A stretch of DNA of 41,963 nt, from the NCBI GenBank assembly GCA_014763665.1, contig JACXUY010000011.1, positions 1 to 41,963 of the forward strand, written 5' to 3'. How positions within the stretch are numbered: the stretch's first letter is position 1; every line of letters starts with the position of its first letter. A model generated the notes under the pieces. The model was not told the origin of the DNA, made no database searches, and saw only the letters and a program-made list of their open reading frames with translations. Source of the stretch: Gammaproteobacteria bacterium (lineage in GTDB: Bacteria > Pseudomonadota > Gammaproteobacteria > Thiomicrospirales > Thiomicrospiraceae). The position numbers and the translations under genes were made by a program. Of this stretch, positions 30,254-39,861 are shown piece by piece.

Positions 30254-31039
30254 CTAAGGTATTTGATAAATTAACAATTGCGTTTGACGTCCATCTGATA
30301 ACTCCCATACCTCCAGAGGCTCGACACCCTCAATAGCAAAAGAGTTAGACACTAACAACGCACCCGACTTCATTTCAGCACACCCCTTTTGCCACAAACG
30401 CGTCATCGGCACGGGTGATAAAAACACATACACCATATCAACCTGACTTAAATCGGTTTGCCACATATCACCACGCGACACCTGACCTAGACCCGACCAT
30501 CGACACACCATCTGAGAAAACCATGCCAGCACTGGTGAATACTCAACACCCTTCGCTTCGATGCCCGCCTTTGCCAAAGCACGCACCACCCCACCTAAAC
30601 CAGAACCCAAGTCCAACACAGATTTCACTTGATAGGTCTGCGCTAGCTCCACCAAAGCTTGATGCGTTGACTTGTTCGTTAAATACAAAGGCACCCTGTC
30701 TTTCAAAGCCGCCGAAAACACCAACATGAGCAATAAAGCCAAACCAGCGAACCAAAGGGGGTCAACCAGAGTTTGCGTCGCCCCCCAATACAAACCCAGC
30801 GGTAACACAGCTTGCACCCACAACCACCAGCGAGGCAGCCCCATGAGCCAACTCAACAGCACCGACAAGCCCACTTGCAACAACAAGAAACTCTGTACAT
30901 AGGACAAGCCAATTAACCAATCGACCCAAATCCTGGCACTAAATTTAACCAGCAATAGCGCAACAAACTGCACCAACAACACCCACCACAGTGGATGAAG
31001 GTATTCAGAAATGGATTTTTTTGTTTTATTTTGGTGCAT
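30254..31039 (-). CDS. Membrane-anchored class I SAM methyltransferase (FAM173-like)
   Basis: 261 residues. The N-terminal 115 residues hold four hydrophobic helices rich in Trp and Leu. They are followed by a short segment DRVPLYLTNKSTHQALVELA and a Rossmann methyltransferase whose SAM motif I is VLDLGSGLGGVVRALAKAG (about 141-159), with a later acidic motif VEYSP and a YVFLSPVPM strand in the motif IV position. The layout, membrane anchor then small methyltransferase, resembles the FAM173/ATPSCKMT group of protein-lysine methyltransferases, but that is a suggestion. No good ribosome-binding site precedes the ATG. A GGTGC NtrC half-site (31033-31037) overlaps its start codon. Confidence 0.7.
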   Translation of the reverse strand: MHQNKTKKSISEYLHPLWWVLLVQFVALLLVKFSARIWVDWLIGLSYVQSFLLLQVGLSVLLSWLMGLPRWWLWVQAVLPLGLYWGATQTLVDPLWFAGLALLLMLVFSAALKDRVPLYLTNKSTHQALVELAQTYQVKSVLDLGSGLGGVVRALAKAGIEAKGVEYSPVLAWFSQMVCRWSGLGQVSRGDMWQTDLSQVDMVYVFLSPVPMTRLWQKGCAEMKSGALLVSNSFAIEGVEPLEVWELSDGRQTQLLIYQIP

Positions 31040-33989: not shown

Positions 33990-34838
33990 TTAGGACGATG
34001 AAGACTCGGTGCTAACAGTAGCGTGATAACGAAGCAAATCCATGCGTCCATCTTCATGCTCAACCAACGCAGTACAGGACTCGACCCAATCACCACAATT
34101 CCCATACCAGCCCTGATCGGTTTGACGTATTTCAGCATGGTGAATATGGCCACAGACAACACCATCAAAGCCCGCTTTATGCGCATCTCGCATGAGCAAA
34201 TGTTCATACTCGTGCATGTACATCACCGCTCGCTTCACGCGATGCTTGAGATAAGCCGATAAAGACCAATAACCAAAACCCCAGTATTGACGTAATTTGT
34301 TGTACCAGCGGTTGACATGTAACATGCTCTCGTAAGCCCAATCTCCTAATAAAGCCAGCCATTTATGACATGTTACGACACCATCATAAGCATCACCATG
34401 CAATACCCGCAGCTTTTGCCCGCTTAGCGTTTCATGCACTACTTCATCGCACAACTCAATGTTGCCAAAGTGAATGCCCGAATAGCGTCGTAAAAAATCA
34501 TCATGATTACCTGTAACATAGACAATGCGACTGCCCCGCTTGGCTTTGGTAAATAGCCGACGAATAACATCGGTATGACTTTGTGGCCAAAAATGGCGCT
34601 TTTTCAAGCGCCAGCCATCCACAATGTCACCAACTAAATAAATAACAGGGGCATGGTGAAATTTCAAAAATTCAGCCAAGGCTTCAGCTTGGCAACCTTT
34701 AGAGCCTAAATGCACGTCAGAAATAAACAAGGCACGATAATATTTATGCACACCATCGGCTTGTTCATCGGTTGGCATCCATGCTGGCTCTGTCGCAACT
34801 TCATCAGCCATCATCTTCATCCACTGTTGATCCGTCAT
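33990..34838 (-). CDS. plcP: PlcP-type metallophosphoesterase (phospholipase C for lipid remodelling)
   Basis: 282-residue calcineurin-like phosphoesterase of the UDP-diacylglucosamine-hydrolase-related group (COG2908). Metal motifs: ISDVHLGSKGCQAE (about 39-52), GDIVDGW, GNHDDF, LHGDAYD and GHIHHAEI. The HLGSKGCQAE variant and the absence of a companion LPS gene point to PlcP, which in Sinorhizobium and marine bacteria removes phosphate head groups from phospholipids to leave diacylglycerol during phosphate starvation. The operon partner BtaA uses diacylglycerol, and a Pho box controls the operon. Alternative: an LpxH-like enzyme, judged less likely in this context. Three bases separate it from the GNAT gene. 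Confidence 0.8.
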   Translation of the reverse strand: MTDQQWMKMMADEVATEPAWMPTDEQADGVHKYYRALFISDVHLGSKGCQAEALAEFLKFHHAPVIYLVGDIVDGWRLKKRHFWPQSHTDVIRRLFTKAKRGSRIVYVTGNHDDFLRRYSGIHFGNIELCDEVVHETLSGQKLRVLHGDAYDGVVTCHKWLALLGDWAYESMLHVNRWYNKLRQYWGFGYWSLSAYLKHRVKRAVMYMHEYEHLLMRDAHKAGFDGVVCGHIHHAEIRQTDQGWYGNCGDWVESCTALVEHEDGRMDLLRYHATVSTESSSS

Positions 34839-34841
34839 CGC

Positions 34842-35924
34842 TTATACCGCCTGCTGCGCTAGAAAAGCAGGAACATAGCGCCGCATCAATTTGGCTGTTA
34901 TCTGCATCGCTACATTCTGCCACTTAGGTAAATGATGGGCATAAAATGCATGCCATTCCATATGTGCAACCCCGCCACGCATACGTTTGAAATTGGCCGA
35001 ACCAGCCCCCAAATTGAGGTAATACTCTTGCTCGATGCTTTCACGCAACACCCTTGCCATCAACAAGCGATATAGAGCCAATTCAGTCGGCAAACTGGTG
35101 TCATAACCAAGCATCGGTGTGGTCATCACTCCGTTTTGTGCAAAAACACCAATAAAAGCAATGAGCTGATCTTGCTCATCGGCAAAACCATAAAAAGACA
35201 ACCACTGATGCTCAATGGCGTGTTGAAAATAAGCCGGTGTATAGTGTGCATTCCAGCGTGAATGCTTATCGACGTATAGCTGTTTATAGAGCTGAGCCAT
35301 TGCTGGTGCATGAGAAGCATTAAAATCTTGTGGAAACAAAGGGGTGAGCGTCGTTTTTTGTAACAACTTTTGATCAATTTGGTTATTGCGCTGTTTCATC
35401 CATCGGCTCGATGTTTTCCAATCAAAACCATAGACAACGCGACTTGGCCATAATTGCCAACCTTGCTTTTGCAGTGCTTCGATTAAAGGTGCATCGTAGC
35501 TCTCATGCAAGGTGCGCAACCACAAGGCGCGCTTTGGATGTTCCACAACCAATCTATCCCTTAGCTTAGTCAATATGCTATCTGACCAGTTTGGATACAA
35601 ATGAGTAGAAACACCCCAAGCATTAATGCTAACCGACTCATCCAAGCGCAAAGCCCTAAACCAAGGCTCTGCTATCGAGAGCCCAAACTTAGCCCAGCGT
35701 TGTGCCGATGCGTCACTGAGTTGATCACACTCATCACGAGCATAATCAATAAACCCATGCTGTGGTGACGCTAAATAAGTTTGACCTGCTTTGACACAAC
35801 CAATAGCCACGGGCAAGGTAGCATCGTTAATCATCATAGCCTTTAACTCAGCATGCCAATTGCTAATTAAGGCTTGTTGTTGCATGGCACTGATCCAGGT
35901 AGCGACCGCCCTACCGTCCTTCAT
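34842..35924 (-). CDS. Uncharacterised GNAT-fold acyltransferase in the btaA operon
   Basis: About 360 residues with no membrane span or signal peptide. The C-terminal half has the PF13480-type GNAT pattern: FYGFADEQDQLIAFIGVFAQ, MTTPMLGYDTSLPTE, LMARVLRESIEQEYYLNLGAGSANFKRMRGG and MEWHAFYAHHLP, where G-x-G-x2-NFKR-x-RG is a hallmark. The N-terminal half is poorly conserved. It stands where a btaB methyltransferase would be expected, 15 bases behind btaA and 3 before plcP, so it probably acts on the BtaA product or a related head group. The start is placed at ATG 35922-35924 rather than an upstream TTG; an ATG at 35883-35885 is also possible. Confidence 0.7.
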   Translation of the reverse strand: MKDGRAVATWISAMQQQALISNWHAELKAMMINDATLPVAIGCVKAGQTYLASPQHGFIDYARDECDQLSDASAQRWAKFGLSIAEPWFRALRLDESVSINAWGVSTHLYPNWSDSILTKLRDRLVVEHPKRALWLRTLHESYDAPLIEALQKQGWQLWPSRVVYGFDWKTSSRWMKQRNNQIDQKLLQKTTLTPLFPQDFNASHAPAMAQLYKQLYVDKHSRWNAHYTPAYFQHAIEHQWLSFYGFADEQDQLIAFIGVFAQNGVMTTPMLGYDTSLPTELALYRLLMARVLRESIEQEYYLNLGAGSANFKRMRGGVAHMEWHAFYAHHLPKWQNVAMQITAKLMRRYVPAFLAQQAV

Positions 35925-35939
35925 CAACAAAGCAGCACC

Positions 35940-37151
35940 CTAACAAATACGTGTATAAACGAAACATCCGCCATAGATTGCTGATCGATCTGCTTGCCAA
36001 AAAGCATGATTCGCTTCCTCATCGGTTGACCAACAACTCAGTAGTGCCACAGGCAACATACCTTCTAAAGGTGACTCTTTACCTGCAGTACGGAACACCA
36101 CTCTCGCACCCATGCGAGCCGTGCGGTTAATCTCGACCCACAACTCGGTTAACTGACTTTCCGACATCCAATCTTGTGCATCTAGCAACACATAAACATC
36201 AACACTCATCGCTGGACGAACCGCCAAATAATCGGTCACAGATTGATGATGAATGCTCACTTTTTCAGCGGCTTCTTTCGTACTTTTATAATGCGTTTGC
36301 TGCAAATACAGAGGCAAAGCTGATTGCTCACTGGCATTAAAACGACGTGCAAAAGCTTGCCAAGCAAAATAGTTATCAGCTAAGGGAAAATCACAGGCAA
36401 GGTGACGCAAGCGTTCCCTCAATACATCGGCCATGTGTGCTTGGTCGCCTTTTAACACTTCATATTGACGCGGTGGAATACCCAATCCATAAAGCACCCA
36501 CACTTGAGACGATAACCAACGCACCAAGCGACTATCGAATAGCGGTGCGATTTGTGCATCAAAAATCACTTGCGCTTCTTCTTGGGTTTTAGCTTGCATT
36601 ACCGCCGATAAATCATAACCCAAACGTTTGGCCAACCAATGACCGAAACCGATAAAGTTACCCAGCAATCCTTGATGATAAAAGTCTTGACTAAACCACT
36701 TTGCGCGACCGGTTAAATCGACCTGACCCCAATAGGTCTGTGCAAATTCGGGCAAATGGGGAATTAAATCGCGCATTAAAGCGTCATTTTGCGGCACATT
36801 ACCCAATGCAAAGAGTTGATGAAACTCATCATAAGACAGGTGTTCCGCTGCCGTGCGTTTAAGCGCCAACAATGCCAAATGGGCTTCATTTAAGTCCACC
36901 GCAGCAATACTCGCTGGCTGAGCCGACAAATAGGATAAGATGTTGCAACCGCCCGAGGTGAGACAAACCATGTTTTGTCCACTTATATCACCCATCGCCA
37001 TTAAATCGGCAACAGGATCCTCCCAAATCAGCGGATAGACCAAGCGATCAAACCAACGCACAAACAAGCGGTCCATCAAACTGCGACCTTCATGATGTGA
37101 AATCTGAGATGACAATCCTACTGCATCGGACAACAGCGCTTTACTTGACAT
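35940..37151 (-). CDS. btaA: BtaA-type SAM:diacylglycerol 3-amino-3-carboxypropyltransferase
   Basis: DUF3419 protein. BtaA moves the 3-amino-3-carboxypropyl group of SAM to diacylglycerol, giving diacylglyceryl-homoserine, the precursor of betaine lipid DGTS. Hallmarks: YPLIWEDPVADLMAM, the SAM loop CLTSGGCNILSYL, AAVDLNEAHLALLALK, and a second-half VYVLLDAQDWM. The start is ATG 37149-37151 with GGGAG upstream, giving 403 residues. A longer frame to 37301 would add 50 residues that mimic a signal peptide, but that DNA contains the Pho boxes and -10. First gene of btaA-GNAT-plcP. No btaB is nearby. Confidence 0.85.
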   Translation of the reverse strand: MSSKALLSDAVGLSSQISHHEGRSLMDRLFVRWFDRLVYPLIWEDPVADLMAMGDISGQNMVCLTSGGCNILSYLSAQPASIAAVDLNEAHLALLALKRTAAEHLSYDEFHQLFALGNVPQNDALMRDLIPHLPEFAQTYWGQVDLTGRAKWFSQDFYHQGLLGNFIGFGHWLAKRLGYDLSAVMQAKTQEEAQVIFDAQIAPLFDSRLVRWLSSQVWVLYGLGIPPRQYEVLKGDQAHMADVLRERLRHLACDFPLADNYFAWQAFARRFNASEQSALPLYLQQTHYKSTKEAAEKVSIHHQSVTDYLAVRPAMSVDVYVLLDAQDWMSESQLTELWVEINRTARMGARVVFRTAGKESPLEGMLPVALLSCWSTDEEANHAFWQADRSAIYGGCFVYTRIC

Positions 37152-37190
37152 AATTTTTGGCTCCCAACCAAGCATACTAATTGAATGCTG

Positions 37191-37245
37191 AGTGTAAATG
37201 GCCTGTGTCGCAGTTTCATGACAAGCTTGTGACAAACAGATGACA
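37191..37245 (-). promoter_or_regulatory. Pho-box promoter of btaA-GNAT-plcP
   Basis: On the minus strand TGTCAT (37240-37245), TGTCAC (37229-37234) and TGTCAT (37218-37223) are spaced exactly 11 bases, with a degenerate TGCGAC at 37207-37212. Ten bases later comes TACACT (37191-37196) as -10. The spacing equals that in front of pstS. The rest of the gap to 37393 holds a TetR-type operator. Confidence 0.88.
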
Positions 37246-37393: not shown

Positions 37394-38146
37394 ATGTCCT
37401 CAACCCCTTTCCTAAACCAATGGTTTCGAGATCCTAAGGAAGAAACCACCTACATTAACGAAACAGCAGTCAGAATTCGTGCCGGATTTTTAATCGCCAT
37501 CCCCCTGTATATGCTATATACCCTAATCGATGTGGTGTTTGGCCCTCACTGGGTCGTACCCGAAACAGCGATGATTACCGATACTGGTGATATTGATTTT
37601 GATGGCCGCATCATCTACACCGTTGAAGCCTTACGTCGAACTTACGACTACACCACTCAAACATGGGTATTGTTCTACGCGCTATTTGAAATGCTGGCCG
37701 GCATGTTTGTTGCCACATCGCGCTTATCGCCTACCATTTGGATAGCCAGCTTTTTAGCACGTAACAAACCCGTTTCATACAAACCACTTAACCCCAAACG
37801 CATGGCATGGAGCATTGGTGCTTTGATGATTGTGGCATGCTTGGTGTTCTTTAATCCAGATAGCTTTGCACGACTCATGAATAGTCTATTTGGATTAGCA
37901 ATCGTTACAGATGAACAGGTTATGCCACTTTGGATTCCGCTACTGGTATTTTTATGCCTAGGGTTTATGTGGATGGAAGCCATTTTGGGATTTTGCGTTG
38001 GTTGTAAGCTGCATGCTTTGCTCGTTAAGGTTGGTATTTTTAAAGAAGAATGTGAAGCCTGCAATAATATAGACTGGGAAGCAATTGCCGCACGCCAGAA
38101 AGCAAAACAAGCAGCGGAACAAGCCAATCAGCCCCAAACTGAATAG
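37394..38146 (+). CDS. DUF4395-like membrane protein
   Basis: 250 residues. After a short N-terminus with INETAVRIRAGFLIAIPLYMLYTLIDVVF (first membrane span), there are further spans around WVLFYALFEMLAGMFV, WSIGALMIVACLVFF and IPLLVFLCLGFMWMEAILGFC. The FCVGCKLHALLVKVG motif fits the DUF4395 hallmark of a Cys pair at the end of the last span, and ECEAC adds another Cys pair in the cytoplasmic tail; the C-terminus is Ala/Gln/Lys-rich. Four cysteines suggest a thiol, sulfur or metal role, but no function is known. AAGGAA precedes the ATG. Regulated probably by a TetR-type repressor; divergent from btaA. Confidence 0.65.
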   Translation: MSSTPFLNQWFRDPKEETTYINETAVRIRAGFLIAIPLYMLYTLIDVVFGPHWVVPETAMITDTGDIDFDGRIIYTVEALRRTYDYTTQTWVLFYALFEMLAGMFVATSRLSPTIWIASFLARNKPVSYKPLNPKRMAWSIGALMIVACLVFFNPDSFARLMNSLFGLAIVTDEQVMPLWIPLLVFLCLGFMWMEAILGFCVGCKLHALLVKVGIFKEECEACNNIDWEAIAARQKAKQAAEQANQPQTE

Positions 38147-38162: not shown

Positions 38163-38202
38163 CCCATTAAAAACCCCAGCAGCTCGTGGGGTTTTTAATG
38201 GG
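38163..38202. terminator. Bidirectional terminator between DUF4395 and plsC-like genes
   Basis: A perfect 15-base stem CCCATTAAAAACCCC with its complement and a ten-base loop. It overlaps the last eight bases, stop included, of the oppositely oriented acyltransferase gene. Confidence 0.9.
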
Positions 38203-38938
38203 CTAACTTCAGCCATTCCTGCTCAACCGCCGTATGTGTTTGCTGAGCTAATACGTTACGGCTGGTGTCTGCCGTTACTGTTAGGGCCGACAAAAAATGG
38301 ATATGCGCTTGTAAGCAATCTTGCTGTAGCAAATACCATAGGTTAGCAATAAAACTCTGTTCACCGACATAAGCAATATCCGTTCGGCGATCCTGAGCAT
38401 CATGGTAGCTTAAACATAGCGGCTGAACGCTTACACCCAACTCAATGGGCAAAGCAAACAACCGAGCATGAAAAGACTTAGGCGCATGATCCGTCGTGGT
38501 ACCTTCGGGAAAGAAGAGCACACTGTCACCCGCTCGTACCAGGTTGGCCATGTGTTGCATCGCTTGGCTGGTTTCCCCTTGCCCTCGTTTGAGGAACACA
38601 GTTCCAGCACGTTGCGCTAACCAACCAATGACTGGCCAGTGTGCCACTTCGTGTTTCGACAGAAAACGTGCCGGCGACACGGCCATAACAACGAGAATAT
38701 CTAACCAAGAATGATGATTGGCCACCCATACACTTCCCGGAATAGGTTGCCCCTGATGACACAACTGAACACCGATTACCGACAGCAATTGGCGCGACCA
38801 CCAAACGACAAGACGTTGCTGCGCATTCGTGTAGGCACTATTCGGATGCACTCGCAAGCGGAATAGCGCCAAAATCACACCAACAGTTAACCACACCCCC
38901 AGCCACGTCAAACGCCATAGCGCTCGCCATGACTTCAT
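38195..38938 (-). CDS. olsA: 1-acylglycerol-3-phosphate-type O-acyltransferase (OlsA-like)
   Basis: 247-residue PlsC-family acyltransferase at the inner membrane. One N-terminal membrane span (about 9-26), then NHHSWLDI (HX4D catalytic motif, about 73-80), FLSKHEVAHWPVIGWLAQRAGTVFLKRG, and FPEGTTTD with acceptor-binding residues. In context it should add the second, O-linked fatty acid to lyso-ornithine lipid (OlsA), because OlsB lies directly upstream, three bases away, under Pho control. A general PlsC acting on lysophosphatidate is the alternative. Confidence 0.8.
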   Translation of the reverse strand: MKSWRALWRLTWLGVWLTVGVILALFRLRVHPNSAYTNAQQRLVVWWSRQLLSVIGVQLCHQGQPIPGSVWVANHHSWLDILVVMAVSPARFLSKHEVAHWPVIGWLAQRAGTVFLKRGQGETSQAMQHMANLVRAGDSVLFFPEGTTTDHAPKSFHARLFALPIELGVSVQPLCLSYHDAQDRRTDIAYVGEQSFIANLWYLLQQDCLQAHIHFLSALTVTADTSRNVLAQQTHTAVEQEWLKLAH

Positions 38939-38941
38939 GCG

Positions 38942-39742
38942 TTAGGCTGCCATTGCAACAGCATGAGGGGCATGTAAAGGAGGCACAACCATACTGATGG
39001 GTGTGGCACGCTGTAAGAAATGACGCGCATATCGAGGGTTCAAATCCTTCACATCTAACAAAATAAAGAAATCAGCGACACCAAAAGCAGCATCTAAACA
39101 AGGGTCACCACAAACTTTCGCGCCTAAACGCAAATAGGCTTTCAGTAATGGTGGCCAGTTAATGCTAATCGCTTCAGGCATATTTGGCAATTGTGGAATG
39201 GCGACGCGAGGTGCGACACAACGTTCGCCATCGGCCAACAGGTTGTTGTCGGCCAAATATCGACGGATGGCTTGCACCTGAACACCGCCATCAGAGAAAT
39301 CAACACTGGCACAGCCCATTAAGAAGTCAAAGCCCTCTTCCAACATAAAGCTAGCCAAACCCGACCACAAGACACCAATAGTAGCACCGTTGCGAAAATC
39401 GGCGCGCACACAGGTACGTCCAATTTCCATAACACGACCTGACATTTGGCGAATTGTGGTTAAATCGAACTCATGATCAGAATAATAATAACCGCCAACT
39501 TCTTGCGCTACTTTATCCGTCAAGATACGCGTACAAGCAACAATATCGCCTGTTGCCATGTCTTCAACCAGCAAATGCGCACAAACATCATCAAAACCAT
39601 CCTTATCCAGCCCCAAGTGCCCTGTCGGCAGCTGAGCACCCATTTCCAAGGCAAAGACTTCGTAACGCAAACGCTGGCAATTCATCACATCTTGCACAGA
39701 TGAGGCCATGCGAACAGTTAATCCTTTTTCAGTCGCAACCAT
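38942..39742 (-). CDS. olsB: L-ornithine N-alpha-acyltransferase OlsB
   Basis: 266-residue GNAT-superfamily protein (hemolysin-like acyltransferase group). It attaches a 3-hydroxyacyl chain from acyl carrier protein to ornithine, forming lyso-ornithine lipid, a phosphorus-free membrane lipid. Motifs: RYEVFALEMGAQ near the start, CTRILTD, EIGRTCVRADFRNGATIGVLWSGL (acyl-donor binding) and FDFLMGCASVDF. It is followed by the OlsA-like gene. The ribosome-binding site is weak (GAGAGA). A long array of Pho half-sites lies upstream, so the pair should be induced at low phosphate. Confidence 0.87.
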   Translation of the reverse strand: MVATEKGLTVRMASSVQDVMNCQRLRYEVFALEMGAQLPTGHLGLDKDGFDDVCAHLLVEDMATGDIVACTRILTDKVAQEVGGYYYSDHEFDLTTIRQMSGRVMEIGRTCVRADFRNGATIGVLWSGLASFMLEEGFDFLMGCASVDFSDGGVQVQAIRRYLADNNLLADGERCVAPRVAIPQLPNMPEAISINWPPLLKAYLRLGAKVCGDPCLDAAFGVADFFILLDVKDLNPRYARHFLQRATPISMVVPPLHAPHAVAMAA

Positions 39743-39775: not shown

Positions 39776-39852
39776 ATGATAAAGACGAACTGTGAACAGG
39801 TCGTGACAGCAAGATGATGTTTTGGTAACAGCTCGGTGACAATTTGATGACA
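39776..39852 (-). promoter_or_regulatory. Six-fold Pho half-site array and -10 of olsB
   Basis: Read on the minus strand, half-sites start at 39847 (TGTCAT), 39836 (TGTCAC), 39825 (TGTTAC), 39814 (degenerate), 39803 (TGTCAC) and 39792 (partial), all in exact 11-base steps. Ten bases after the last is TATCAT (39776-39781), five of six with the -10 consensus. That is longer than the two to four half-sites usual for PhoB. Confidence 0.85.
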
Positions 39853-39861
39853 AAAGCGTTT

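Follow-up and report, generated by a model that had tools for sequence, protein, structure and literature searches.

A tandem-GNAT transferase occupies the btaB position of a predicted Pho-controlled btaA operon in Thiomicrospiraceae and suggests a phosphorus-free lipid other than DGTS

The btaA operon and its predicted Pho control

We analysed a 41,963-nucleotide stretch of DNA (the window; contig JACXUY010000011.1 of assembly GCA_014763665.1) from a gammaproteobacterium of the family Thiomicrospiraceae, order Thiomicrospirales, which carries a minus-strand operon of btaA, a gene for a GNAT-fold protein and a plcP-like gene, with gaps of 9 bp and then 3 bp between them. The source genome is a 2.17 Mb draft in 238 contigs with a completeness rating of 100%, and btaA is present in a single copy. 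The plcP-btaA-btaB arrangement and its product, diacylglyceryl-trimethylhomoserine (DGTS), are established (PMC4796936); the GNAT gene stands here in the position of btaB. The features of the operon are:

35940..37151, minus strand: btaA, S-adenosylmethionine (SAM):diacylglycerol 3-amino-3-carboxypropyl transferase (DUF3419); PF11899, 335.5 bits, cut-off 28.2
34842..35930, minus strand: GNAT gene at the btaB position, encoding a tandem-GNAT transferase and proposed diacylglyceryl-homoserine (DGHS) N-(amino)acyltransferase; PF13480, 32.1 bits, cut-off 22
33990..34838, minus strand: plcP-like gene, calcineurin metallophosphoesterase; PF00149, 40.3 bits
37218..37246, minus strand: Pho box array 5' of btaA, TTGTCATCTGTTTGTCACAAGCTTGTCAT; three TGTCA half-sites with 11-bp spacing (37246-37218)

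The PF11899 match of BtaA is full-length, covering positions 5-385 of 385, and a longer open reading frame reaching 37301 has a TTG start without support. The protein shares about 46% identity with the DUF3419 protein adjoining BtaB in Sinorhizobium and Shinella, and in a BtaA tree it clusters with the BtaB-linked BtaAs of Shinella, Rhizobium and gammaproteobacteria; as judged from orthology, it would make DGHS from SAM and diacylglycerol. The plcP-like protein is 41-50% identical to the gene product found 3' of btaAB in other gammaproteobacteria and falls far under the LpxH model cut-offs, and its family points to a phospholipase C that would free diacylglycerol.

The Pho box array lies 67-95 bp 5' of the btaA ATG and consists of two overlapping 18-nt sites, each matching the consensus at 11/14 positions. 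Within the window, Pho boxes are also found 5' of pstS (20743) and of olsB (39853), and the majority of the BtaA-GNAT loci described below carry similar boxes 5' of btaA (L110-L174), so that the case for Pho control of the operon draws on more than one site and is well supported. The relatives with NCBI names that carry the operon belong to Thiomicrospira, Thiomicrorhabdus and Hydrogenovibrio. A first-pass annotation of this DNA had described a Pho-controlled btaA operon with a GNAT gene between btaA and plcP, and both the regulatory sites and the gene order agree with that description.

BtaB is absent from the source genome and from the order

We searched the source genome for BtaB with the Sinorhizobium protein that adjoins btaA and with two profiles, of 3 and 13 rows, and the 63 genomes of the order with the two profiles; no BtaB was found by any of the three queries in the source genome or by either profile in the order. 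On the wide profile the btaA-adjacent BtaBs score 232-271 bits, whereas the best methyltransferase reaches 49.6 bits in the source genome and 68 bits in the order. In a class sample of 369 genomes the 13-row profile recovered 19 BtaBs at 178-276 bits, most of which supplied or resemble rows of that profile. The 3-row profile, built from rhizobial BtaBs only, already detects the gammaproteobacterial BtaBs, at 81-229 bits, and the absence of BtaB is thus meaningful. The first-pass annotation had made its proposal conditional on btaB being absent from the genome, and the genome-wide search indicates that it is, with 49.6 bits for the best candidate against at least 178 for real BtaBs.

The best matches across the 63 genomes, considered as btaB candidates encoded elsewhere in the genome, were rejected, since they read as ordinary UbiE-, UbiG- and BioC-type methyltransferases. 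A PmtA-type methyltransferase, which could provide an alternative route of methylation, gave no match in the source genome. For loci from beyond the order and the class sample, BtaB was looked for within about 6 kb of the BtaA-GNAT pair.

The GNAT is a fixed partner of BtaA

In the order, BtaA occurs in 33 of the 63 genomes and the GNAT in the identical 33, with adjacent coordinates every time, while the GNAT is found in none of the 30 genomes that lack BtaA. The genomes are related and these counts are therefore not independent events; nevertheless, the pairing, at 33/33 against 0/30, is not due to chance. The class sample contains canonical BtaA (E below 1e-90) in 21 genomes, which divide into 18 with BtaB and no GNAT and three with the GNAT and no BtaB (the source genome, G043 and G119). 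All 18 BtaB-bearing genomes carry BtaB directly 3' of btaA, followed in several by plcP. Seven further genomes of the class encode a more divergent DUF3419 protein, with E-values of 1e-59 to 1e-73, and in these neither BtaB nor this GNAT was found (L066-L072, L094).

A scan of about 85,000 species yielded 118 relatives of the GNAT, and we retained 80 of them. At 37 of these 80 loci BtaA lies directly 5' of the GNAT on the same strand, and BtaB is nearby at none of them; the 37 span Thiomicrospiraceae, Undibacterium and other Burkholderiales, Vogesella and Neisseriaceae, and two verrucomicrobial metagenome-assembled genomes (MAGs). The survey of co-occurrence that the first-pass annotation had called for thus identifies the GNAT as a stable partner of BtaA in the position of btaB, and comparative genomics shows that it replaces BtaB in its slot. 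The verrucomicrobial pair is set apart from the clade of Thiomicrospiraceae and beta-proteobacteria in both the BtaA and the GNAT tree: its BtaA clusters with a different BtaB-linked clade and its GNAT sits on a long branch among members that are not linked to BtaA. Since the pair falls apart from the others in both trees, the data suggest that this GNAT family was recruited to its place beside BtaA on at least two occasions.

The data also bear on whether DGTS could still be made, with an unrecognised methyltransferase encoded elsewhere trimethylating DGHS and the GNAT having a separate function under phosphate starvation. Class I methyltransferases are numerous, sequence cannot exclude a non-orthologous replacement of BtaB, and an uncharacterised methyltransferase with a hydrophobic N-terminal region and weak Pfam matches only is encoded at 30254-31039 of the window. 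However, the source genome has no BtaB-like or PmtA-like protein, none of the 37 loci has a BtaB-like methyltransferase near BtaA although BtaB is adjacent in 18 of the 18 other genomes, and in the order the GNAT is missing wherever BtaA is missing; we consider retention of DGTS highly improbable. Instead, the GNAT very probably replaces BtaB as the step that modifies DGHS.

Fold and motifs of the GNAT protein

The likely start of the GNAT gene is the ATG at 35924. The PF13480 (Acetyltransf_6) match spans only the C-terminal half of the protein, and the same model matches only 8 of 24 diverse family members at E 0.01. No SAM-methyltransferase model and no PF13444 model matched the protein, and NCBIfam holds no family for it. 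The motif G-x-G-x2-NFKR-x-RG given in the first-pass annotation is present as G308-A-G-S-A-NFKR-M-RG, and the lack of a SAM motif reported there is in agreement with the model searches. Eighteen positions are invariant in the 24 diverse members, including F314-K315, R318-G319 and G275-YDT.

An AlphaFold2 model (31 rows) with a predicted local distance difference test score (pLDDT) of 93.7 and a predicted template modelling score (pTM) of 0.90 consists of two GNAT-like halves, tandem domains unlike the single-domain OlsB/FeeM type. The top Foldseek hits include L-PGS, MprF/A-PGS, Sbb17 and FemX. On structural realignment (VIA), the best 22 rows are all aminoacyl-tRNA-dependent transferases, with Z 12.9-15.9 and 237-274 residues aligned; these include Sbb17 (Z 15.9, 3.5 Å over 248 residues), FemX (Z 15.7, 4.4 Å over 272 residues), MprF (Z 14.5, 3.6 Å over 248 residues) and FemA (Z 13.4). 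Tandem GNATs that depend on coenzyme A (CoA), together with N-myristoyltransferase, rank below the tRNA-dependent enzymes at Z 11-12.4. As a control, a model of OlsB, which is also encoded in the window (pLDDT 76, only 4 rows), was compared and matched N-acyl amino acid synthases and acyl-homoserine lactone (AHL) synthases best, with FeeM at Z 14.6 and the AHL synthases at Z up to 13.6. OlsB was matched to the right donor class, and the fold comparison can thus separate donor classes, at least for OlsB.

The key lysine of the aminoacyl-tRNA-dependent group is Lys305 in FemX and Lys329 in DhpH-C, the latter following Phe328 (review, PMC12945691). Judging from the motif and from where the structural alignments end, F314-K315 is a plausible equivalent of FemX Lys305 and of the Phe-Lys pair of DhpH-C. 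The C-terminal helix 336-360, which we considered as a membrane anchor, is weakly amphipathic with a net charge of +3 to +4, and the net charge of the protein fails to separate the BtaA-linked members from the others (+7.7 vs +9.4). BtaA-linked GNATs have His223 (KHS) where 87% of the others have Tyr (KYS), and the separate verrucomicrobial pair also has His; this comparison is exploratory, as it covered many alignment columns and two origins, and His also occurs in some members that are not linked to BtaA; His223 is suggestive only as a mark of BtaA-linked GNATs.

The same data allow N-acylation to be weighed, in which the GNAT would use acyl-acyl carrier protein (ACP) or acyl-CoA to attach a fatty or short acyl group to DGHS, giving an anionic N-acyl-DGHS, either a three-chain or an N-acetyl lipid, that could substitute for phosphatidylglycerol. 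The slot and the partner speak for N-acylation as they do for aminoacylation, the GNAT superfamily is mostly CoA- or ACP-dependent, and N-myristoyltransferase, a tandem GNAT that uses long-chain acyl-CoA, matches at Z 11.7. The nearest folds, however, are the aminoacyl-tRNA enzymes, 3-4 Z units above; the OlsB control places a lipid N-acyltransferase of known type with FeeM and the AHL synthases; and by eye there is no R/Q-x-x-G-x-G/A CoA loop after the strand that ends near G275-Y-D-T and before helix 286-300. N-acylation is in our view unlikely.

The GNAT family outside the BtaA context

The remaining half of the family is found beside a PRK06849-like ATP-grasp gene, in Ralstonia, Lysobacter, Rhizobium, Paenibacillus, Runella and Deinococcus (L134, L135, L162, L187, L196-L200). 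These clusters often add a Rieske oxygenase, 3-ketoacyl-ACP synthase III (KAS III), an OleD-like short-chain dehydrogenase/reductase (SDR), an AHL-lactonase-like metallo-beta-lactamase-type (MBL) protein and an F390-synthetase-related protein. In Shewanella surugensis (L162:5917-9307) a single cluster holds two members of the GNAT family with the Rieske gene between them. As far as we found, the setting looks like an uncharacterised cluster for a lipid or amino-acid product. Because half of the family occurs with an ATP-grasp ligase, its members as a whole are not restricted to products of BtaA, and their substrates may in general be amphiphilic amino acid derivatives.

This distribution also bears on whether the GNAT works with BtaA in some other way, by modifying the carboxylate, the glycerol part or the diacylglycerol, with DGHS itself or another derivative as the end product. 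The pairing reveals a linkage of pathway and not the atom that is modified, and the substrate shared with the ATP-grasp clusters could be any amphiphilic amino-acid lipid. Yet the free amine is the target of BtaB and the usual nucleophile of GNATs, and the expected supplier of diacylglycerol is PlcP and not the GNAT, and modification at such a site appears distinctly unlikely.

A proposed pathway to aminoacyl-DGHS

We propose that phosphate starvation would induce the operon via PhoB, that PlcP would cleave phospholipid to diacylglycerol and that BtaA would move the 3-amino-3-carboxypropyl group of SAM onto diacylglycerol to give DGHS. Trimethylation of DGHS by BtaB would not occur, as BtaB is absent, and the fixed pairing and the replacement in the slot suggest that the tandem GNAT modifies DGHS in its stead. 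On the basis of the fold and of the Phe-Lys motif, the GNAT may transfer an amino acid from aminoacyl-tRNA to the homoserine amine, likened to the action of FemX on peptidoglycan precursors and of MprF on phosphatidylglycerol, and the product would be an aminoacyl-DGHS whose head group resembles a dipeptide. The first-pass annotation had suggested that the GNAT enzyme may acylate or otherwise modify the homoserine amine; comparative genomics backs a modification of DGHS in the place of BtaB, and with regard to the chemistry, which that annotation had left open, the fold favours the aminoacyl-tRNA-dependent group of the Fem/MprF type over an OlsB-like fatty-acyl GNAT. We regard aminoacyl-tRNA-dependent N-aminoacylation of DGHS as the most likely of the modifications considered and give it close to an even chance. 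That aminoacyl-DGHS constitutes a new class of phosphorus-free lipids, made by BtaA and a tRNA-dependent tandem GNAT replacing BtaB, is a tentative proposal, to which we give somewhat less than an even chance.

Several observations weigh against this assignment. The match of K315 with Lys305, though plausible, comes from the motif and from similar alignment ends only, and Asn325 of DhpH-C has no counterpart at that position in the GNAT. A shared fold does not reveal the donor, since N-myristoyltransferase and mycothiol synthase are also tandem GNATs and match at Z of about 12. Neither phmmer nor profile searches with the GNAT found more than chance hits among PDB sequences, and none of the 24 members has a FemAB, LPG_synthase or LPG_synthase_C Pfam match at E 0.01. 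With half of the family in another context, beside an ATP-grasp gene, membership of the family does not fix the substrate. Finally, no BtaA lies near one GNAT that belongs to the BtaA clade (L122) and is encoded on a low-coverage MAG contig; the contig is filed as a Synechococcaceae MAG, its GNAT belongs to the Thiomicrorhabdus/Hydrogenovibrio clade, and the case is probably a binning or assembly error.

Taken together, the data suggest that these bacteria probably make a membrane lipid without prior description; we found no description of the BtaA-GNAT pair in the literature, in a search that left subscription papers mostly outside. The presence of btaA is commonly taken as a capacity for DGTS, and because there is no btaB beside btaA, nor in the genome where this was tested, that reading is probably wrong for this family of sulfur oxidisers, for beta-proteobacteria and for some Verrucomicrobia. 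If the product is aminoacyl-DGHS, it would be a novel class of lipid and would give tRNA a new role in membrane remodelling, and the charged tRNAs of translation would be tied to lipid remodelling under phosphate starvation in Thiomicrospiraceae, beta-proteobacteria and Verrucomicrobia. If it is N-acetyl-DGHS, the lipid would be nominally isobaric with DGTS, being only 0.036 Da lighter and easily confused with it, and may have been misreported as DGTS.

Neighbouring features of the window

The genes olsB and olsA (38195-39742) adjoin the btaA operon and have a Pho box of their own:

38942..39742, minus strand: olsB, ornithine N-acyltransferase; PF13444, 104 bits; NF052554, 149 bits, under the equivalog cut-off of 350; fold like FeeM and the AHL synthases
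38195..38938, minus strand: olsA, lyso-ornithine-lipid O-acyltransferase; PF01553, 73.9 bits; NF052552, 126 bits, under the cut-off
39836..39853, minus strand: Pho box 5' of olsB, TTGTCATCAAATTGTCAC, 11/14

Only 3 of the 63 genomes of the order have olsB, all of the same genus as the source, against 33 of 63 with the BtaA-GNAT pair, and ornithine lipid is thus not a general companion of the pair. A DUF4395 membrane protein is encoded at 37394-38146, divergent from btaA, and its adjacency to btaA is kept in one other locus (L112). A strong Pho-box-like site (TTGTCATATTTTTGTCAT) is present on the plus strand at 131-148, close to the edge of the window.

Comparison with known systems

The closest known system is the BtaA-BtaB pathway to DGTS of Rhodobacter sphaeroides, Sinorhizobium meliloti and, with PlcP, Phaeobacter, which shares with the operon described here the BtaA orthologue, the PlcP partner, the Pho box and a gene order with one gene after btaA. 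Here, however, a tandem-GNAT transferase fills the btaB slot in place of a SAM methyltransferase, and the genome lacks BtaB. The ATP-grasp clusters contain the same GNAT family, with members about 30% identical to the GNAT here, but the partner is an ATP-grasp ligase and there is no BtaA.

With FemX, FemA, MprF and Sbb17 the GNAT shares the tandem GNAT fold (Z 13-16), and towards the C-terminus of its second domain it carries an invariant Phe-Lys pair that resembles the Phe-Lys of DhpH-C and Lys305 of FemX. LysX, an MprF-type enzyme, makes lysyl-diacylglycerol (PMC10580965), a precedent which indicates that such enzymes can act on a diacylglycerol lipid. The GNAT differs from the Fem/MprF group in its low identity (about 10%), in having no FemAB or LPG_synthase_C match and in its fixed partnership with BtaA, and from MprF also in having no membrane domain. 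The OlsB/OlsA ornithine lipids and the GluB/GlsB aminolipids are likewise phosphorus-free amino-acid lipids made via a GNAT, and a review of bacterial aminolipids lists the PF13444 enzymes (PMC11631085). OlsB is a single-domain PF13444 GNAT that acts on a free amino acid, whereas the GNAT described here is a tandem PF13480 protein that would act after a diacylglycerol head-group enzyme.

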